A DNA stretch of 29,978 bases from a virus: positions 1-29,978 of the IMG/VR virus record IMGVR_UViG_3300030101_004023. One strand, given 5' to 3'. The first letter of the stretch is position 1. The number at the start of each line of letters is the position of its first letter. Position numbers and translations under genes: made by a program. Shown one piece after another: positions 1 to 14,189 of this stretch. The notes under the pieces were generated by a model. That model saw only the letters and a program-made list of their open reading frames with translations, ran no database searches and was not told the origin of the DNA.

Positions 1-1
1 C

Positions 2-163
2 GAAGCCATTGGGAAGCTATATTGCGCTATAACTAGGTGCGATAGTGAAAACATTAAGCTAGTCGCGAAACACTTGCCAGAAGCGCTTACATTGGCGAGA
101 AAGCACGTTGAACATTGCCCTCTATCAAATCAACTTTTAGATAAAGATATTTGGGGGGAATAA
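2..163 (+). CDS. 3' end of an unidentified gene, truncated by the window edge
   Basis: An open frame enters from the left edge and ends at TAA 161-163, giving the last 53 residues of a protein (contains TRCDSENIKLVAKHLPEALT and ends DKDIWGE). Its stop lies two bases before the ATG of the ArdA-like gene, so the two were probably co-transcribed. The fragment looks helical and has two cysteines, but I do not recognise a family. The start, full length and function lie outside the window. Confidence 0.6.
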   Translation, partial: EAIGKLYCAITRCDSENIKLVAKHLPEALTLARKHVEHCPLSNQLLDKDIWGE

Positions 164-165
164 AA

Positions 166-669
166 ATGGCAAATATAACTTATTACTCATTGTCCGATTA
201 TGTCGGCAGTACTTTGATAAGCAAAACATTTCAACTTGATGAAGTAGATCACGATGAGCATTTACAGCAAATATCAGATTGGTTGAAGTCTATAACAAAA
301 TTAAAAAATGATGGTGAGATCAGAGAAGAATGGATCGTCTGTGATTCTGAAGACATACCGACAAACTATGTAGGTGAATACCAGTTAAACCCAGAGTTTT
401 TCGAATATCGAGATGTACTTAACAGATCTTATTTGGATAAAGAAATTTTTGAAGCGGGTTTAAATAATGGTTTGACTTTAGAGGACATTGAGGAAAATTA
501 TCTTGGTTATTTCAGAGATCCTAAAGAACTAGGTGAGCATTTTGTTCACGAGCTAGGCGCAATCGATATCCCAGAACATTTGGCAAATTACTTTGATTAC
601 GAATCATACGGGTACGATCAATCTATAAATAATCTTTCGGAGTGCGATGGACATTACTTCTGGAATTAA
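166..669 (+). CDS. ardA: ArdA-type antirestriction protein
   Basis: A 167-residue, strongly acidic protein, close to the roughly 165-170 residues usual for ArdA. Family members are dimeric DNA mimics that occupy the DNA-binding site of type I restriction-modification enzymes and so protect incoming DNA. What points to ArdA here is the length, the high Asp/Glu content, the N-terminal strand with a YVGST turn, and the C-terminal pattern (HELGAIDIPEHLANYFDYES followed by GHYFW) that matches the family's usual ending. The start chosen is ATG 166, eight bases after the G-run of a GGGGGGAA Shine-Dalgarno sequence; an upstream TTG at 151 is in frame but lacks a good site. A terminator-like hairpin follows, so ArdA closes its own transcription unit. 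The family call comes from recall of its sequence pattern. Confidence 0.82.
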   Translation: MANITYYSLSDYVGSTLISKTFQLDEVDHDEHLQQISDWLKSITKLKNDGEIREEWIVCDSEDIPTNYVGEYQLNPEFFEYRDVLNRSYLDKEIFEAGLNNGLTLEDIEENYLGYFRDPKELGEHFVHELGAIDIPEHLANYFDYESYGYDQSINNLSECDGHYFWN

Positions 670-682
670 TTCCAACTGATGA

Positions 683-720
683 GATCAGATAGTCACTGAT
701 CGAAACACCCTACGGGGTGT
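683..720 (+). terminator. Tandem hairpins after ardA
   Basis: Two adjacent inverted repeats lie between the ardA stop and the next leader. The first is GATCAG 683-688 with CTGATC 696-701 (7-base loop). The second is ACACCC 705-710 with GGGTGT 715-720 around TACG, which makes a cUACGg loop of the very stable UNCG class. The downstream T-run is poor (CTTGG), so this may be an inefficient terminator or an mRNA 3'-end barrier. Confidence 0.55.
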
Positions 721-733
721 CTTGGAAAACTAC

Positions 734-749
734 TAACCTGAGGAGGTTA
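734..749 (+). promoter_or_regulatory. SD hairpin 1 (CCTGAGGAGG element)
   Basis: TAACCT 734-739 and AGGTTA 744-749 form a perfect 6-bp stem closing on GAGG. The element contains the AGGAGG ribosome-binding site of the gene starting at 754. It is one of five such leaders in this region whose stem flanks change but keep pairing. Confidence 0.65.
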
Positions 750-753
750 AAAG

Positions 754-915
754 ATGAAAAAGAAAATGAACTTCATACACAATCAAAGAAAGATTCCAGT
801 CTTAATTGATCTAGGATGGCGGGTCAAATGGAGGTGGACTGATGCACCTAAAAAAGTGATCAAGAACATTCAGTTTATTGAGATTCCATGCGATTTCACA
901 AGGGAGGTGGCGTGA
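754..915 (+). CDS. Small basic hypothetical protein (53 aa)
   Basis: ATG 754 is preceded by AGGAGG at the usual distance, and the frame ends at TGA 913-915, directly before the ATG of the next gene. The product is 53 residues, lysine-rich at its N-terminus (MKKKMNFIHNQRK), with a Trp-rich centre (GWRVKWRWTD). It ends DFTREVA. I recognise no family. A nucleic-acid or phosphate interaction is possible from its charge but is only a guess. It is the first gene of a cassette led by SD hairpin 1, and the exact abutment suggests translational coupling to the next gene. Confidence 0.6.
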   Translation: MKKKMNFIHNQRKIPVLIDLGWRVKWRWTDAPKKVIKNIQFIEIPCDFTREVA

Positions 916-1125
916 ATGAAAACTATAGAATTAGACCCAAACATGATTGCAGAAATGTATTTTGATGCAGTTGATTTAAAAAGAACTCTGGAAGAAAACA
1001 ACTTAACTCATTTTAACCGAGTTCATGGAGCAACACATAATGAGGACACTATAGGCGATTTAATAGACAACCTTTTTTATAATATCGACAAGCTCGATGA
1101 TATCGTGCAGGAGGGGACACAATGA
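916..1125 (+). CDS. Hypothetical acidic protein (69 aa)
   Basis: A 69-residue acidic, probably all-helical protein (starts MKTIELDPNMIAEMYFDAVD; ends DDIVQEGTQ). ATG 916 sits immediately after the previous stop and has GGGAGGTGG upstream. Its stop overlaps the next start in an ATGA junction (1122-1125), the usual sign of coupled translation. No catalytic motif, membrane segment or metal site is visible and I recognise no family. Its place in an early-type cassette suggests a small host-takeover or accessory role, which is inference only. Confidence 0.65.
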   Translation: MKTIELDPNMIAEMYFDAVDLKRTLEENNLTHFNRVHGATHNEDTIGDLIDNLFYNIDKLDDIVQEGTQ

Positions 1126-1427
1126 ATAACAAGGTAAAACTTGCGGGATTCCCTTTAAAAATTGATCAGAGAAAAGCCGACCACTTGATTACTCTTTATG
1201 ATGCGATCTACTTTGTTTCGGGTCAGATGGAGCAGTTCAGAAATGACCCAGAATTATATCAAGCTGAGAAGCATTTGGACGATGCTCACAATGCAATCAA
1301 CGATTATTTACAATCTAAGAATTGCTTCAAGCATTTTGAGAGAGGTTGCACATTTTCAAGCATTCAAAATTACTTTGAAAACTTTGCTTCAAACTCTGAA
1401 TATTTGAGACAAAACAAAAATGACTAG
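1122..1427 (+). CDS. Hypothetical protein (101 aa)
   Basis: A 101-residue protein starting at ATG 1122, overlapping the preceding stop by four bases, with GGAGGGG just upstream. The middle is helical (YQAEKHLDDAHNAINDYLQS) and the C-terminal part is rich in Phe and Asn. Two cysteines (NCFK and GCTF) are too few for a convincing metal site. I recognise no family. It is the last gene of the first cassette; hairpins begin about ten bases beyond its stop. Confidence 0.6.
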   Translation: MNNKVKLAGFPLKIDQRKADHLITLYDAIYFVSGQMEQFRNDPELYQAEKHLDDAHNAINDYLQSKNCFKHFERGCTFSSIQNYFENFASNSEYLRQNKND

Positions 1428-1436
1428 CCTGATGAT

Positions 1437-1477
1437 GGACATTGAGGAATGTCCGAAACTCCCCTACTTTGGGGAGT
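1437..1477 (+). terminator. Tandem hairpins closing the first cassette
   Basis: GGACAT 1437-1442 pairs with ATGTCC 1449-1454 around a TGAGGA loop. ACTCCCC 1458-1464 pairs with GGGGAGT 1471-1477 around TACTTT. The second resembles the post-ardA hairpin in position and outline (GAAAC, C-run, TAC, G-run, GTC) but has different paired bases. No T-run follows. The TGAGGA loop repeats the core of the SD hairpins, so the first stem-loop could also be a protein-binding site. Confidence 0.5.
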
Positions 1478-1497
1478 CGCTAGACCTAAACAAACTA

Positions 1498-1513
1498 TTA
1501 CCTGAGGAGGTAA
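1498..1513 (+). promoter_or_regulatory. SD hairpin 2 (CCTGAGGAGG element)
   Basis: TTACCT 1498-1503 and AGGTAA 1508-1513 form a perfect 6-bp stem around GAGG, covering the ribosome-binding site of the gene at 1516. Compared with hairpin 1 the outer pairs are changed on both sides, which keeps the stem. Confidence 0.65.
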
Positions 1514-1515
1514 AC

Positions 1516-1845
1516 ATGAGCAGTAAAAAAGCAAAAATAATAAGTGGTGATTCCATTTATTACACATATAGAGACTCAAAAGGAATGTACTCTTTGAGAG
1601 AGCATCACATTTCACCAAGCAGTCAGGAAGAAGCTGATCAAATTTATAACGATTTAAATGGTTATTTATGTGATGAATGCCTCTATGAAGATGGCGAGTT
1701 ATCAGCATCTGAAGCTGAGGAAAAATTCATATTTTATATGGCAAAAGCACGAAGAGTTGAAAGATTCGGTTATCTACCAACTGAAGATGGCGAGAGATGG
1801 AGAGCGGGAGATAAACCAAGTTTAATAAACTGGTGGGGTGATTAA
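1516..1845 (+). CDS. Hypothetical protein (109 aa)
   Basis: Start ATG 1516 (MSSKKAKI) is chosen because AGGAGG lies five bases upstream. A longer frame from 1420 would read through the hairpin leader and is unlikely to be translated. The 109-residue product is acidic in its C-terminal half, with a CDEC pair near residues 55-58 (GYLCDECLYEDGE) and a C-terminal WRAGDKPSLINWWGD. One CxxC is not enough for a zinc site unless the protein dimerises. No family recognised. The next gene starts three bases after its stop. Confidence 0.6.
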   Translation: MSSKKAKIISGDSIYYTYRDSKGMYSLREHHISPSSQEEADQIYNDLNGYLCDECLYEDGELSASEAEEKFIFYMAKARRVERFGYLPTEDGERWRAGDKPSLINWWGD

Positions 1846-1847
1846 TT

Positions 1848-2000
1848 ATGGATCGTAAAATTGAATCTGATTTCCTTAATAACTTGGAGCAAGTGTTAGC
1901 CGATTTTTTTGGTTGTGATTGGTCATATGATTTTGAAAAAAATGATGGAGGACTGAGTATAAAAATCGAAACTTGGGGACTTGAAGAGGAGGAGGAATGA
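1848..2000 (+). CDS. Small acidic hypothetical protein (50 aa)
   Basis: A 50-residue frame from ATG 1848 to TGA 1998-2000. The product is acidic (MDRKIESDFLNNLEQVLADF; ends WGLEEEEE). Its 3' end doubles as the purine-rich AGGAGGAGG ribosome-binding site of the next gene, and the stop overlaps that gene's ATG 1997. This explains the poly-Glu tail. The upstream site for its own ATG is only GGTGATT, which is weak. Function unknown; coding status rests on the tight junctions at both ends. Confidence 0.5.
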   Translation: MDRKIESDFLNNLEQVLADFFGCDWSYDFEKNDGGLSIKIETWGLEEEEE

Positions 2001-2545
2001 TAATGAGTAAATTTAAAGTGATTGCAACTATAGAACAAATTATAGAAGCAGATACACGAGAAAAAGCATTAAGTAGAGCCAACCAACTTATAGATGTTAA
2101 TGGGGTGGTTTCTTTTAATACAGGCAAAATAAAATATCAAATAGAAAATTACAGACCAGAGTTTATTTGGAGGTGCGTTCCTAATGTTAATTACTATTTG
2201 GAAATTGAAGCGGATGATGAAGACGAAGCCTTAATGAAATTTGAATCCTTAATTGGAGACTATCAAAGTGACCTATATTCTCAATTACTTGATCTTGGCT
2301 TTATGGAGTTAAGTTGTAATTGGAATTTTGCTGAGGAATATGAAGGCTTTTTTTGTTGTTATCCATGCATTGATCTTTCAATAGACATTAAAGCAAATAC
2401 TGAAGAAGAAGCATTAAAGAAAATGGGAGATTTAATAAAACCATTTATGGATTCATTTCAGAAAAAGCTAGTCGATCTTGATTTTAAAAAGACAGATTAT
2501 CCAGTAGGTTTCTGTACAGATAGTTGGAAAGAAGGAGAAGAGTAA
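1997..2545 (+). CDS. Hypothetical protein with three internal repeats (182 aa)
   Basis: An acidic 182-residue protein. Three units share a strand followed by a short acidic turn and a helix: IIEADTREKALSRANQLI, LEIEADDEDEALMKFESLI and IDIKANTEEEALKKMGDLI. The second and third also share the following helix (LYSQLLDLGF; FQKKLVDLDF), so the gene grew by internal duplication. Four cysteines cluster between units two and three. The start is ATG 1997 (ATGA overlap) or ATG 2003; AGGAGGAGG at 1987-1995 serves both. The family is not recognised with confidence. The repeat and acidity would suit a binding protein, but no partner can be named. Confidence 0.65.
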   Translation: MIMSKFKVIATIEQIIEADTREKALSRANQLIDVNGVVSFNTGKIKYQIENYRPEFIWRCVPNVNYYLEIEADDEDEALMKFESLIGDYQSDLYSQLLDLGFMELSCNWNFAEEYEGFFCCYPCIDLSIDIKANTEEEALKKMGDLIKPFMDSFQKKLVDLDFKKTDYPVGFCTDSWKEGEE

Positions 2546-2553
2546 ACAACAGT

Positions 2554-2601
2554 TAAGCCCATTCTTTTGAGTGGGTTTACTGGTGTTTATTTTTAGCACC
2601 A
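2554..2601 (+). terminator. Tandem hairpins closing the second cassette
   Basis: TAAGCCCA 2554-2561 pairs with TGGGTTTA 2572-2579 (one G-T pair, 10-base loop). TGGTG 2581-2585 pairs with CACCA 2597-2601 across a T-rich loop. This again places two hairpins between the stop codon and the next CCTGAGGAGG leader, as after ardA and after 1427. Confidence 0.55.
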
Positions 2602-2606
2602 TAACA

Positions 2607-2622
2607 ATACCTGAGGAGGTAT
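2607..2622 (+). promoter_or_regulatory. SD hairpin 3 (CCTGAGGAGG element)
   Basis: ATACCT 2607-2612 pairs perfectly with AGGTAT 2617-2622 around GAGG, enclosing the ribosome-binding site of the gene at 2625. The outer three pairs differ from hairpins 1 and 2 on both strands. Confidence 0.65.
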
Positions 2623-2624
2623 CT

Positions 2625-2867
2625 ATGAAGATGATATACAAAAGGTCATCTGATCAAGTCATTGAATATGATTTGAAGACTGACCCACCAGACGCTAAGT
2701 TCTGGACAACTTATAAACTAAAGAAGCGTGACATTGTTTTAGTGGATAAGTTTGACAGGACGGAAACGTCAATTATCAAGGATGAAATACTGAACGACAT
2801 TGTTGAGAGTGAGAAGCCACAGGAGGTTGAAACTGGTTTCGCATGGACAAACAAGGTCAGGAGGTAA
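2625..2867 (+). CDS. Hypothetical protein (80 aa)
   Basis: An 80-residue protein beginning MKMIYKRSSDQVIEYDLKTD. ATG 2625 is chosen because AGGAGGT ends five bases before it; a GTG at 2571 is in frame but lies inside the preceding hairpin. The product is mixed-charge, has no cysteine and no membrane segment, and ends AWTNKVRR. Its last codons (AGGAGG) act as the ribosome-binding site of the next gene at 2870. No family recognised. Confidence 0.6.
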   Translation: MKMIYKRSSDQVIEYDLKTDPPDAKFWTTYKLKKRDIVLVDKFDRTETSIIKDEILNDIVESEKPQEVETGFAWTNKVRR

Positions 2868-2869
2868 AC

Positions 2870-3001
2870 ATGAAGCACTTTGAAATAGTACATGATGACA
2901 GCGGAAAATTTGTTGGAGTCTTAGTATCTGGAAAAGCCTACATGCTCTTCAATATTGGAGCGATTATTTTATCAGTATTAACTTTAATCATTATCACCTG
3001 A
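2870..3001 (+). CDS. Small single-span membrane protein (43 aa)
   Basis: A 43-residue frame with AGGAGGTAAAC before ATG 2870. The N-terminal half is soluble (MKHFEIVHDDSGKFVGVLVS). The C-terminal half is one hydrophobic segment (FNIGAIILSVLTLIIIT) that runs to the stop, so the chain likely ends in or just past the membrane. The stop TGA 2999-3001 is inside the CCTGAGGAGG element of the next gene, so ribosomes finishing here would open SD hairpin 4. Function unknown; small phage membrane proteins often target host functions, but nothing specific can be claimed. Confidence 0.55.
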   Translation: MKHFEIVHDDSGKFVGVLVSGKAYMLFNIGAIILSVLTLIIIT

Positions 3002-3009
3002 GGAGGTAA
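2994..3009 (+). promoter_or_regulatory. SD hairpin 4 (weaker CCTGAGGAGG element)
   Basis: ACCT 2996-2999 pairs with AGGT 3004-3007 around GAGG, then a C/A mismatch and a T-A pair. It is the weakest of the set, and the only one lying inside a translated region, where the upstream stop codon overlaps it. It supplies the ribosome-binding site for ATG 3012. Confidence 0.5.
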
Positions 3010-3011
3010 CA

Positions 3012-3245
3012 ATGAACGTGCAAAATTTAAAGCAGCACTTGGAGGAAGCAGAGAGGATTGCAATCACTCTTAACATGCCAACAGTTGAGCGATCAATTTC
3101 TAAGACGAAAGCTAAGGTTAGAAATGAAATCGCCAGACAAAAGTGCATGAAAACTTTACAGCTAGAGCTTATAGACCCTGAAGTCAGCAAACAAAAATGC
3201 TTTAAGAAATGGGGACTATCTAAAGGGAGGCTTTATGACAACTAA
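3012..3245 (+). CDS. Hypothetical basic protein (77 aa)
   Basis: A 77-residue, lysine/arginine-rich, probably all-helical protein (MNVQNLKQHLEEAERIAITL; ends CFKKWGLSKGRLYDN). ATG 3012 follows the AGGAGGTAAC site of SD hairpin 4. The charge would suit nucleic-acid binding and the next gene has a helix-turn-helix, so the pair could be regulatory. That is inference; I recognise no family. It overlaps the next gene by 11 bases. Confidence 0.6.
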   Translation: MNVQNLKQHLEEAERIAITLNMPTVERSISKTKAKVRNEIARQKCMKTLQLELIDPEVSKQKCFKKWGLSKGRLYDN

Positions 3246-3465
3246 AGAAGATAGAACAAAACAGCTGACAAATTTAAAGCGTCAACACAAGCTATCAAAT
3301 GGCGATATCGCGACTATTTGTAGTGTCAGCATACATACAGTCAACGAATGGTTTAGAAGTCCCAAAGAGTTTAAAAACGTGGCTATATCTGAACCGTTGT
3401 TAGAACTGTTAACAATCAAACTAGCGATGCGAGAAGCTAACAAGGGGGTGAGTGATGCTAGTTAA
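3235..3465 (+). CDS. Small helix-turn-helix DNA-binding protein (76 aa)
   Basis: A 76-residue protein with a clear helix-turn-helix at about residues 20-43: LSNGDIATICSVSIHTVNEW, then FRSP. This is the Cro/CI-like or phage-antirepressor style of DNA-binding helix pair (helix 2 GDIATICSV, recognition helix IHTVNEWFR). GGGAGG lies seven bases before ATG 3235, inside the end of the previous gene. It could be a Cro-like regulator or an excisionase-type accessory factor; its distance from the CI-like gene (9530) and attP (about 14 kb) gives no clear choice. No dimerisation domain is visible beyond a C-terminal leucine-rich helix. Confidence 0.7.
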   Translation: MTTKEDRTKQLTNLKRQHKLSNGDIATICSVSIHTVNEWFRSPKEFKNVAISEPLLELLTIKLAMREANKGVSDAS

Positions 3466-3631
3466 GCCAACTTGGGGATATGATTATGAATTATTTCAAA
3501 ATGTTCATTGTTTAGAATGTGATCATGTTTACCCAGAAAAAACAGACGGAACGGTGATCAAAATATGCCCCAAATGCGGCAACAAAGATATGATGAAAAC
3601 CGTTTATCTACAAAAAGAAGGCAGTGTGTAG
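3455..3631 (+). CDS. Small zinc-ribbon protein (58 aa)
   Basis: A 58-residue protein with two CxxC knuckles about 21 residues apart: HCLECDH near residues 18-24 and ICPKCGN near 40-46. This spacing fits a rubredoxin-like zinc ribbon. ATG 3455 overlaps the previous gene by 11 bases and has AGGGGGTGAG upstream. Zinc ribbons of this size in phages bind nucleic acid or protein; no target can be named. The gene ends its cassette and is followed by strong hairpins. Confidence 0.65.
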   Translation: MLVKPTWGYDYELFQNVHCLECDHVYPEKTDGTVIKICPKCGNKDMMKTVYLQKEGSV

Positions 3632-3641
3632 TAGACACCAT

Positions 3642-3712
3642 AGAGCCACCTCGAATATCAAATCGAGCACGAGTTTTTGAGGTGGTTCTTTAGTGTTAAT
3701 TCCGACACTAAA
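3642..3712 (+). terminator. Tandem hairpins closing the third cassette
   Basis: AGAGCCACCTC 3642-3652 pairs with GAGGTGGTTCT 3679-3689 (11 pairs, one G-T) across a 26-base loop. TTTAGTGT 3689-3696 pairs with ACACTAAA 3705-3712 (8 pairs, loop TAATTCCG), sharing base 3689, so the ends of the two stems compete slightly. They sit between the zinc-ribbon stop and SD hairpin 5, repeating the cassette pattern. Confidence 0.6.
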
Positions 3713-3717
3713 CTAAA

Positions 3718-3731
3718 ATCCTGAGGAGGAT
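3718..3731 (+). promoter_or_regulatory. SD hairpin 5 (CCTGAGGAGG element)
   Basis: ATCCT 3718-3722 pairs with AGGAT 3727-3731 around GAGG, enclosing the ribosome-binding site of the gene at 3735. The T-A pair next to the core replaces the A-T pair of hairpins 1-3, a compensatory change. Confidence 0.65.
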
Positions 3732-3734
3732 ATT

Positions 3735-4034
3735 ATGAAAAATGAAGAAGATAAAAATCAGTACTTTGCGAAAAATGACAATCTAGCATTTAACTTAATG
3801 ACTCATTCAATGAATCAGTATGCTAACAAATGTGAGGTTGATAAAGATCATGGCATGATGGATCCATTACAAGCGACATATTTCCTTGTAAATAATCTAG
3901 CAACAGCGTTGTTCTATAAGGCAGAAGGTCATATGGAATTATGCGAAGAGATCATATTAGAAGCAGTTCAAGATGCATTTGAAAAAGTAGAAAACACCCG
4001 TCAGAAAACTAAAAAGTTGGAGGTGGTGAAATGA
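3735..4034 (+). CDS. Hypothetical protein (99 aa)
   Basis: A 99-residue, helical, acidic protein (NLAFNLMTHSMNQYANKCEV; MDPLQATYFLVNNLATALFY). Its C-terminus is lysine-rich (RQKTKKLEVVK). ATG 3735 is led by SD hairpin 5, and its last bases (TTGGAGGTGGTG) form the ribosome-binding site of the next gene, whose ATG overlaps its stop. No metal site or membrane span is seen and no family is recognised. Confidence 0.65.
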   Translation: MKNEEDKNQYFAKNDNLAFNLMTHSMNQYANKCEVDKDHGMMDPLQATYFLVNNLATALFYKAEGHMELCEEIILEAVQDAFEKVENTRQKTKKLEVVK

Positions 4035-4219
4035 GCAAAACAATTCTTATCACAGAAACAAGACTTGAAACGGTCAATTACTTTCATGAATTTGAAGGAA
4101 CCATTGATCAAGCGAAAGAATGGTTTCAAGACAATGGTCATTACGATGAGACAAGTATTGAAAGTGAGACTACCCATTCAAACATACTTGAAGTTAATTA
4201 TGAGGAGTGGGAGGAATGA
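4031..4219 (+). CDS. Small acidic protein (62 aa)
   Basis: A 62-residue, strongly acidic protein (MSKTILITETRLETVNYFHE; ends NYEEWEE). Strand-helix-strand character with a QAKEWFQDNGHYDE helix recalls small phage proteins of a ferredoxin-like shape, but I cannot name a family. It starts in an ATGA overlap with the gene before and ends in a second ATGA overlap at 4216. Its purine-rich 3' end (GAGGAGTGGGAGG) doubles as the next ribosome-binding site. Confidence 0.6.
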   Translation: MSKTILITETRLETVNYFHEFEGTIDQAKEWFQDNGHYDETSIESETTHSNILEVNYEEWEE

Positions 4220-4419
4220 ATGGGTGGCTGTGTGATACTTGTTTATCTGATGATATTTATCAGCTGTCAGATGCAAGTTCAGAAATGGATATTTATTGTG
4301 GACAATGTAAATCACCAAACTACAAGGTTTCTAAGTGGTTTATAGAACACTTTGAACCACCTATTCATTGGTATATTAGATGTAACCCAAACGAGGGGGC
4401 AGATGAGGGCATTCTCTGA
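4216..4419 (+). CDS. Small zinc-ribbon-like protein (67 aa)
   Basis: A 67-residue protein with CDTC near residue 6 and CGQC near residue 30, spaced as in a zinc ribbon (MNGWLCDTCLSDDIYQ; IYCGQCKSPNYK). A later lone cysteine (IRCNPNEG) follows. Start ATG 4216 is chosen over an in-frame GTG at 4207 because GGGAGG ends just before it and it makes an ATGA overlap. Its last codons form the first copy of the 20-base repeat described at 4384. Function unknown; a second zinc ribbon lies 600 bases upstream. Confidence 0.6.
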   Translation: MNGWLCDTCLSDDIYQLSDASSEMDIYCGQCKSPNYKVSKWFIEHFEPPIHWYIRCNPNEGADEGIL

Positions 4420-4529
4420 ACCAAACGAAGGGGCAGATCGTCAAAAAAATAGATAATTTTAGTCTAGTTTTATGATGCTTAACACTATCTGCACCTTGTT
4501 TTGGTGCAGTCTGCCCCTTAATTTGGGTT
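4384..4529 (+). repeat. Direct and inverted 20-base repeats around a hairpin; candidate regulatory RNA
   Basis: Three related copies are present. Two are direct: 4384-4404 and 4419-4438 (core AACCNAAACGANGGGGCAGAT). One is inverted at 4510-4529 (TCTGCCCCTTAATTTGGGTT). Between them CTGCACC 4489-4495 and GGTGCAG 4503-4509 form a perfect 7-bp stem. The word TCTGC occurs in both the hairpin and the inverted copy, so the direct copies could pair with either. The stretch 4420-4584 has no convincing gene. This may be a terminator, an attenuator or a small RNA. Confidence 0.5.
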
Positions 4530-4584
4530 CGCAATTTATAATTTCAAACAAACGGGAGTATTTAAGATAGCTATAGTGTTAACA

Positions 4585-4818
4585 ATGTCTATAGATGGCG
4601 GTGATATTACTTTCTCGGTATTGAATCGTCATCTAACGACAAAAAAGCAACGAGAAGTATTCGATCAATATTATGTCGAGCACGAGTTTTTATATCAAAT
4701 TAAACGATCATGCGCGACAAAATCTACGAGACTTTATTCTTTTGAAACAAGTGACAGGATTGCTGAGTGCTGTAGATGGTTTGAGGATCAAGCTATTTAT
4801 AGTTCTGGGCGATCCTGA
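4585..4818 (+). CDS. Hypothetical protein (77 aa)
   Basis: A 77-residue basic protein (MSIDGGDITFSVLNRHLTTK; ends DQAIYSSGRS) with three cysteines (SCATK; ECCRWF). The start is uncertain: ATG 4585 has no good ribosome-binding site, and an in-frame GTG at 4576 is only 17 bases from GGGAG. The stop TGA 4816-4818 falls in a CCTGAGGAGG copy that is not followed by a gene. Function and family are not recognised; coding status is moderate. Confidence 0.45.
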   Translation: MSIDGGDITFSVLNRHLTTKKQREVFDQYYVEHEFLYQIKRSCATKSTRLYSFETSDRIAECCRWFEDQAIYSSGRS

Positions 4819-4857
4819 GGAGGGTTGAAGGGGATATAAATCCCCTATCGCCCAGAA
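4803..4857. terminator. Strong nested hairpin between convergent genes
   Basis: TTCTGGGCGAT 4803-4813 pairs perfectly with ATCGCCCAGAA 4847-4857. Inside it AGGGGAT 4829-4835 pairs with ATCCCCT 4840-4846 around ATAA, directly abutting the outer stem. It separates the plus-strand early genes from the minus-strand replication block and so probably ends transcripts on both strands. Neither side has a long T-run, so the mechanism is uncertain. A degenerate CCTGAGGAGG copy lies within it at 4814-4823. Confidence 0.6.
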
Positions 4858-4868
4858 GCTACATAATA

Positions 4869-5294
4869 TCAAAGTGGTTTCAGCCTATCAATTTTATAAT
4901 GACAAACAATCTCAACGTCATCCGCATCCCGTCTGGTGTTTCCTATTCTTCCACCAACTTCAAAAGAATCAGGTGACTCATCGAAGTCTATATATTTTAT
5001 TAAGTCATCAAACTTCACAATAAAAAAACTAGGGACAAGCAACTCTCTTGATAATGATCTCGCTGTCAATCTTTTCATAGTCGAAACAATAATAGTTTCA
5101 TATTTATCACTACTAAAATTTCTAACTCTTATCTCACTCAATGCTTTTAATTTATTATCCCTAATCAAAGCAAAATCTAATCTATACTGAATCGGTAATT
5201 TGATATACTTACAATGCCATTTGTCGGCTACTGTTTCTATGATAAGATTTTCTCTTTGTAAATCTTCTTTTGTCTCGTACATTTGTCTTGACAT
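4869..5294 (-). CDS. Putative PD-(D/E)XK nuclease-like protein (141 aa)
   Basis: A 141-residue protein. Start ATG 5294 (MSRQMYETKEDLQ) is chosen because GGAG lies eight bases before it; a TTG at 5333 has no usable site. The core reads YRLDFALIRDNKLKALSEIR: an Asp (residue 40) at the end of one strand, then Glu-x-Arg (54-56) on the next, spaced as in PD-(D/E)XK nucleases. The usual lysine is replaced by arginine, followed by RNF. An N-terminal Glu (15) fits motif I. It is the last gene of the replication block and overlaps the previous gene by 86 bases. Because of the Lys-to-Arg change it may be inactive, or not a nuclease. Confidence 0.5.
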   Translation of the reverse strand: MSRQMYETKEDLQRENLIIETVADKWHCKYIKLPIQYRLDFALIRDNKLKALSEIRVRNFSSDKYETIIVSTMKRLTARSLSRELLVPSFFIVKFDDLIKYIDFDESPDSFEVGGRIGNTRRDADDVEIVCHYKIDRLKPL

Positions 5295-13865: not shown

Positions 13866-14189
13866 ACAACCTTCCTTGAACACAACCTTGGATTTTTTGA
13901 GGAATCGATTAGTGAATTTCACTAGGAGAAATCTTTTTAGGAAGGTTGTACTCGGTACAAAGCCCGTAACTAATTGATATTATTGATGAAAATTGAATTG
14001 GAGCGGGAAACGAGGTTCGAACTCGCGACCTCAACCTTGGCAAGGTTATACTCACTACGGTAGCAATAACCTCAATTAAATCAATAACTTAACTAAAATC
14101 GACCCAGATCAGCAAATTTTTAAGAAACAACAACCTTCTTTTTACAATTTAAAAACTACAACCTTCCTCAAAGAATACAACCTTCCTTG
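13866..14189. repeat. Integrase arm-type sites (ACAACCTTCCT repeats) on both sides of the core
   Basis: The word ACAACCTTCCT occurs at 13866-13876, 14158-14168 and 14177-14187. It occurs with one change at 14130-14140 (ACAACCTTCTT) and inverted at 13939-13950. A partial copy, ACAACCTTGG, is at 13882-13891. Left arm and right arm thus carry three sites each around the core, the layout of lambda-type attP. These are the likely integrase or accessory-factor binding sites. Confidence 0.75.
13999..14047 (-). other. attP core: 3' half of a tRNA-Gly(GCC) gene
   Basis: Read on the minus strand, 14047 to 13999 is the 3' half of a tRNA-Gly. It has AACCTTGCCAAGGTT (anticodon stem-loop with GCC at 14041-14039), a T arm CGAGTTCGAACCTCG (14025-14011), the acceptor strand TTCCCGC, discriminator T and CCA. 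The sequence upstream on that strand does not supply the matching 5' acceptor strand GCGGGAA, so this is not a whole tRNA. It is the usual identity block by which integration restores a host tRNA gene. Confidence 0.85.

Follow-up and report, generated by a model that had tools for sequence, protein, structure and literature searches.

Shine-Dalgarno hairpins of balanced stem strength, arrayed behind predicted hammerhead ribozymes in related phage contigs

Results

Shared hairpins at the ribosome-binding sites of one gene cluster

We analyzed a 29,978-nt stretch of DNA from an uncultured phage (positions 1 to 29,978 of IMG/VR record IMGVR_UViG_3300030101_004023, hereafter the window), in which a preliminary description had pointed out a motif shared by the leaders of five genes. 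The motif, CCTGAGGAGG, was found in six exact copies, all on the + strand, at 737, 1501, 2610, 2997, 3720, and 4814, against 0.87 expected with one mismatch allowed. Five of the six are ribosome-binding sites (RBSs) with complementary flanks (Table 1), and the shared motif and the flanks quoted for them (TAA/TTA, TTA/TAA, ATA/TAT, A/T, and AT/AT) are exactly as first described. In RNA, the motif would fold as N-CCU-GAGG-AGG-N', and the predicted energies of these Shine-Dalgarno (SD) hairpins, numbered 1 to 5, are -5.2, -5.3, -5.4, -3.8, and -5.3 kcal/mol. The weakest, SD hairpin 4, lies at a gene overlap, where the upstream open reading frame (ORF) 2843-3001 ends on the TGA within the motif; at this position the relative L028 has A..C, that is, an unpaired flank. 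Considered as possible RNA thermometers, SD hairpins that open with temperature, they have predicted energies of approximately -4 to -7 kcal/mol at 37 °C, which may not be the host temperature.

Upstream of the first two hairpins, a structural detector that looks for core and stems identified exactly two hammerheads in the window, compared with 0.07 per dinucleotide shuffle, and 43 copies in eight relatives, compared with 0.4 after shuffling. The first consists of stem I TTCCAA/TTGGAA, core CTGATGA (676-682), stem II GATCAG/CTGATC, GAAA, and stem III ACACCC/GGGTGT. The second, which is conserved in the relative L028, consists of stem I CTAGC/GCTAG, core CTGATGA (1429-1435), an extra T, stem II GGACATT/AATGTCC, GAAA, and a stem III. 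Both have the type I arrangement, with a CUGANGA ... GAAA core, three helices, an open stem I, and U16.1 and H17 ahead of the cut, and in both, stem III ends in U-C before the cut. By core and fold, leaders 1 and 2 therefore carry canonical type I hammerheads, which would be expected to cleave themselves. The assignment is based on core and stems and not on the Rfam cut-off: the best match in the window, 653-726 to RAGATH-1-hammerhead, scored 25.3 bits, below the gathering threshold of 56.3. A first detector demanding an uninterrupted stem II missed most copies and was replaced by the one used here.

Collection of leaders from related contigs

IMG/VR was scanned for the hammerhead core followed by CCTGAGGAGG. 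The scan returned 35 stretches, of which several had five or six matches and a few were set aside as chance matches. On the contigs of the relatives, the motif is confined to one strand and to one block of ~ 2–9 kb. Sixty-three distinct modules of hammerhead plus motif were obtained, with the predicted cut mostly 12–25 nt upstream of the motif and the ATG mostly 5–8 nt downstream. Type III hammerheads (stem III AAGUGU/ACACUU) were also observed directly 5' of the same RBS hairpin in L015 (~ 640-720), L019, L023, L037, and L434. Type I hammerheads a short way upstream of phage start codons are common in IMG/VR (at least 120, in L042-L156), and most of them lack the SD hairpin.

Searching for close relatives with the protein encoded at 3735-4031 gave no match. 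Among cultured phages there was no close relative of L029 and no match to the whole module; the matches covered the hammerhead half only, in Pseudomonas Bruynoghevirus phages. A scan of bacterial genome contigs was left unused, as it returned single matches per contig, by our estimate about the chance number for a gapped pattern of 21 bases. One of the genes behind the hairpin, at L036:6371 and as the family beginning MAKFEDIFQ in L009, L029, and L031, codes for an ArdC-type antirestriction protein (ArdcN + MPTase-PolyVal). Another antirestriction gene, ardA, was earlier reported behind hammerheads (PMC3088659).

Covariation of the stem

The first base pair outside the motif (flank pair 1) is Watson-Crick in 107 of 116 distinct start-codon leaders from the related IMG/VR contigs, and all four pair types occur. 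For hammerhead leaders the count is 58 of 60, the other two being U-G, where 17.9 would be expected and none of 20000 shuffles reached the observed value; for other leaders it is 33 of 38, and for sites whose TGA doubles as the stop codon of a long upstream frame, 16 of 18. When one leader was sampled from each of 43 gene families, 39.7 of 43 were Watson-Crick compared with 12.5 expected, so shared ancestry is not the cause of the flank pairing. Flank pair 2 is also formed above chance (34 of 60 hammerhead leaders, 21.7 expected), while pairing at flank 3 and farther out is at chance. The preliminary description had counted twelve extra pairs over the five sites of the window; those at flanks 1 and 2 agree with the wider collection, and the three at flank 3 have no general support.

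Broken down by pair type, 91 distinct leaders have GC at flank pair 1 in 34 cases, AU in 25, UA in 19, CG in 5, UG in 4, GU in 1, and no pair in 3. The covariation score of these leaders is 0.296 in register; shuffling lowers it to 0.082, and sliding the structure out of register to 0.075 at most. The covariation holds both by this score and with one leader per gene family. As a background, unrelated viral CCTGAGGAGG..ATGA sites have flank 1 paired in 44 of 114 cases. Several variants change the core and keep the stem: TCT-GAGG-AGA (twice), TGCC-GAGGA-GGCA (several leaders), ATACCT-AGAGG-AGGTAT, AATACCTT-GAGG-GAGGTATT, and GGAGC-AGAGGAG-GCTCC. That CCTGAGGAGG and its flanks form a selected RNA hairpin, with a 4–5 bp stem and a GAGG loop that partly encloses the SD sequence, is well supported. 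The earlier suggestion that the hairpin itself is under selection is borne out by the four pair types, the U-G wobbles in the RNA sense, the stem-preserving variants, and the balanced stem energy described below.

Balanced stem strength

The two flank pairs compensate for each other. Sites with A-U or U-A at flank 1 form flank pair 2 in 46 of 53 cases, and those with G-C or C-G do so in 1 of 40 (Fisher, 8e-18). The same association is seen inside individual contigs (35:4 vs 1:26, p 4e-13) and remains when each gene family contributes a single leader (median p 3e-8). Five of the six wobbles at flank 1 are U-G supported by G-C at flank 2. The predicted energies have a standard deviation of 0.95 kcal/mol, compared with 1.64 when the outer flanks are permuted among sites, a spread as narrow as the observed one arising in 0 of 300 permutations; at background phage sites the spread is wider (1.76). 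At G-C sites, flank 2 is paired in only 1 of 42, compared with 22% at neutral outer flanks (p 4e-4), which suggests that the stem strength has an upper as well as a lower limit. The predicted set point is ~ -5.7 kcal/mol in the hammerhead phages and ~ -7.0 in a second group of phages described below.

Other elements upstream of the hairpins

Leaders 3 and 5 carry long hairpins in place of hammerheads (class 2), described from single folds, as MAFFT and RNAalifold yielded no consensus for the class. The hairpin of leader 3 contains a terminator-like stem at 2554-2579, and its class recurs in many relatives. The hairpins of both leaders start at the stop codon of the gene before them or close to it, and either an RNase III-type processing site or a terminator is a possible reading. 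Long imperfect hairpins of this class (GUAA..CACCACGAAGCC..GGUUUCUUAGUGUUAACUUU), starting from stop codons in the place of the hammerhead, were also seen in L014, L020, L024, and L032. Sigma-70 promoters and terminators in window positions 1-5000 showed no excess over shuffles.

Table 1. Predicted RNA elements and motif copies in the window
Feature	Position	Strand	Description
Type I hammerhead ribozyme 1	670..727	+	Predicted cleavage 721/722; structural detector
SD hairpin 1	734..749	+	TAACCT-GAGG-AGGTTA; start codon 754; 15 nt past predicted hammerhead cut
Type I hammerhead ribozyme 2	1424..1483	+	Predicted cleavage 1478/1479; structural detector
SD hairpin 2	1498..1513	+	TTACCT-GAGG-AGGTAA; start codon 1516
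Class-2 leader 3, long imperfect hairpin	2542..2594	+	Begins at stop codon of preceding gene; single fold
SD hairpin 3	2607..2622	+	ATACCT-GAGG-AGGTAT; start codon 2625
SD hairpin 4	2996..3007	+	ACCT-GAGG-AGGT only; start codon 3012
Class-2 leader 5, long hairpin with internal loops, then TTTAGTGT/ACACTAAA hairpin	3633..3712	+	Single fold; conserved in L028
SD hairpin 5	3718..3731	+	ATCCT-GAGG-AGGAT; flank 1 T-A instead of A-T; start codon 3735
Sixth CCTGAGGAGG	4814..4823	+	Convergent gene end; no start codon, not an RBS

A second phage group with a three-way-junction RNA

Two contigs found through the RBS motif, G021 and G022, lack hammerheads and have a three-way-junction RNA in their leaders instead. 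This RNA consists of a 6-bp P1, a P2 capped by a triloop, UG, a P3 whose UUCAAU loop is invariant, ACU, and usually another hairpin. A scan for this RNA alone returned 54 stretches, and 66 copies were observed preceding phage genes in L423, L424, and L436-L487 (e.g., L424:1779-1822). P1 and P2 are paired in 100% of cells with many two-sided changes; the complete pairing is partly built in, since the detector required paired helices, which does not apply to the two-sided changes. The RNA matched no Rfam family. The two elements were not found together: the three-way-junction model detected nothing on the hammerhead contigs, and the hammerhead detector detected nothing on the three-way-junction contigs. 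Standing in the place of the hammerhead, the RNA is, from its sequence and predicted fold, a candidate for a new ribozyme or processing element.

Of 52 three-way-junction copies from the RNA-only scan, 36 precede CCTGAGGAGG, and flank pair 1 is formed in all 36. Over the second group as a whole, flank 1 is formed in 107 of 107 leaders and flank 2 in 95 of 107, compared with 50.7 expected, and the predicted energies have a standard deviation of 0.60 kcal/mol against 1.42 when permuted. This group, too, has variants that keep the stem and carry other loops. In pairwise alignments, the downstream genes of the two phage groups are nearly all unrelated, so the hairpin common to both would be convergent or exchanged.

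Discussion

We consider it most probable (roughly 0.62) that the element is an SD hairpin of set stability that gates translation initiation and that, together with an upstream cutter, is a natural counterpart of the engineered insulator RiboJ. The hairpin, its covariation, the balance of stem strength, and the folds and positions of the ribozymes are supported directly by the data above. From these we infer self-cleavage, processing in the cell, and an effect on translation. Most leaders have one of two kinds of RNA element ahead of the SD hairpin: a type I or type III hammerhead would cut the polycistronic transcript between genes, and the long hairpin, in those leaders that have one, might be cut as well. 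Each gene would then receive its own 5' end, followed by the same gated RBS. The GAGG loop, open to the 3' end of the 16S rRNA, would nucleate pairing, after which the short stem would be displaced as the ribosome binds. A fixed stem strength would make the gate uniform and give each gene a similar initiation rate. The preliminary description had proposed that the hairpin may set the translation rate, and the covariation, the core variants, and the balanced stem energy all favor such a role.

Several observations weigh against this reading. The hairpin is also present without an upstream cutter, at overlapping genes, so the two parts of the module are separable. The hammerheads of the relatives, like those of the window, fall short of the Rfam gathering threshold, the best scoring 33.5 bits to Hammerhead_1 (cut-off 34). 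The exact 10-mer CCTGAGGAGG was a search condition, and part of its invariance comes from that condition. A weak trend toward the same compensation is also present at background phage sites (7/16 vs 3/28, p 0.02). The energies are nearest-neighbor predictions at 37 °C, possibly not the temperature of the host, and for cleavage, structure in the cell, and translation rates the basis is entirely computational.

For hammerhead leaders, the main alternative is that the hairpin serves folding or timing and has no set-point role of its own: it would prevent mispairing between the purine-rich SD and the C-rich ribozyme, or hold back 30S loading until ribozyme folding and cleavage are complete. The hammerhead and three-way-junction RNAs do lie 11–35 nt upstream, and in T4 the folding of the td intron is protected by an RBS hairpin that prevents translation of I-TevI (PMC3014915). 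This explanation does not cover leaders without an upstream cutter, and the sites at which the TGA ends a long upstream frame, many of them without a cutter, still pair at flank 1 in 16 of 18 cases. We regard it as unlikely overall.

We give equally low odds to a protein operator, in which an RNA-binding protein from the phage or its host would recognize the hairpin at every gene of the set and repress them all at once. Single operators are found at T4 gene 43 and the MS2 coat gene, and RegA acts on ~ 30 T4 mRNAs. The identical loop and closing pairs before many genes of one cluster would fit such a site, as would the T4 precedents for shared or hairpin operators (PMC3014915). However, the loop size and the lower stem vary (GAGGA, AGAGG, and AGAGGAG loops), the constant letters are accounted for by the SD, and what is conserved is the strength of the stem and not its sequence. 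On 18 contigs, no match to CsrA, RegB, or RegA exceeded the cut-off; for RegB and RegA, the search had no positive control. A CsrA-like target, which had been proposed at the outset, is not supported, given the position of the GGA. CsrA/RsmA sites likewise have GGA near the SD, of the ANGGA type and wholly within the apical loop, whereas here the loop is GAGG, the GGA spans loop and stem, and its A pairs with U in 91 of 91 leaders. The CsrA search on the 18 contigs, which detected its positive controls and found no homologue over the Pfam cut-off, covered phage contigs only, with a host CsrA outside its scope.

Very unlikely, in our view, is a role mainly in mRNA protection, with the hairpin concealing the SD from GGAG-cutting nucleases or slowing 5'-end decay after ribozyme cleavage. 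RNA structure shields GGAG from RegB (PMC3014915), and a 5' hairpin has been proposed to stabilize RiboJ transcripts (PMC6206723), yet the hairpin here begins 11–25 nt inside the cut end, and stability alone leaves the avoidance of extra pairs at G-C sites unexplained. The original idea that the hairpin is itself a target for RNA cleavage is not supported in that form. T4 RegB sites also place GGAG near the SD, but RegB favors unstructured GGAG with an A-rich 3' side and is hindered by structure (PMC3014915), while the sites here are structured; no RegB was found in a search that lacked a positive control. RNA cleavage is probably central after all, by way of the upstream hammerheads, which had not been reported in the preliminary description. 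Least credible of all is a DNA-level site for a dimeric protein, NCCT-N4-AGGN': the motif is an interrupted inverted repeat, but against this stand its fixed position 5–8 nt before the ATG in coding orientation, the occurrence of all four pair types and of U-G wobbles read in the RNA sense, and the balance of A-U against G-C.

Hammerheads before phage genes and SD-sequestering hairpins in T4 are already known. RiboJ, a synthetic element made of the sTRSV hammerhead, a 23-nt hairpin, and an RBS (PMC6206723), has the same order of ribozyme, hairpin, and RBS as the 63 modules here, and the likeness would extend to the same processed 5' leader for every gene. In contrast to RiboJ, the phage module is natural, occurs in arrays of up to six per locus, and has a hairpin that contains the SD and a stem of set strength; by analogy, it may act as an insulator. 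Intergenic type I hammerheads of phages and prophages, such as those of Pseudomonas phages PaP3 and MR299-2, share the core, three stems, and pre-gene position (PMC3088659; PMC6155905), and the HHphage hammerhead of HF1/HF2 lies 13 nt upstream of the start codon of an early gene (PMC3088659; PMC6155905). Those described here differ in being serial, each followed by a covarying SD hairpin, whereas the MR299-2 hammerhead has no such hairpin. The SD-sequestering hairpins of T4 e, soc, 49, and I-TevI and of the MS2 coat gene likewise hold the SD in a helix at the start site; they are gene-specific and mostly inhibitory, unlike the single short design found here, which is reused in at least 43 gene families, keeps its strength balanced, and leaves the GAGG in the loop. 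Our searches of the literature, from which subscription papers were mostly absent, turned up no report of an SD hairpin that is reused with compensating stem strength and stands in arrays behind ribozymes; this is no proof of novelty.

The roles of prokaryotic and phage hammerheads have been described as an open question (PMC6155905). Here, phage hammerheads are arrayed before start sites and tied to an RBS hairpin of constant stability across many genes; a direct prediction about translation can therefore be tested with simple reporters. Insulator design also gains a natural model in the module, which in addition led to an unlisted RNA that covaries strongly and stands where the ribozyme would be. 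A bolder proposal, which we hold only tentatively and consider unlikely, is that a standard cassette arose by convergence in unrelated phage groups or was passed between them, made up of a self-cleaving RNA (a hammerhead in one group, an undescribed three-way-junction ribozyme in the other) and an SD hairpin whose folding energy is under stabilizing selection. If true, it would provide a natural RiboJ-type insulator, a concrete role for phage hammerheads, and a new ribozyme class.

Minor observations in the window

The TGA of the sixth CCTGAGGAGG copy terminates ORF 4576-4818, and the copy lies inside a TGGGCGAT/ATCGCCCA stem. Around it, at 4790-4862, an outer stem of 8 or 9 pairs encloses two inner hairpins, with GAA preceding the second; this fold resembles a hammerhead-type junction or a terminator. 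The CTGAGGA within the motif was considered as a hammerhead CUGANGA box and rejected, as inspection of sites 1-5 found no adjacent stem and GAAA box. On the - strand at 14002-14073, there is a weak tRNA-like Rfam match (25.4 bits, cut-off 29), and ARAGORN found no tRNA in the window. Directly past the cluster, at 4381-4530, the GGGGCAGAU..AUCUGC and CAGUCUGCCCC stretches would form a long hairpin with a predicted energy of ~ -63 kcal/mol.

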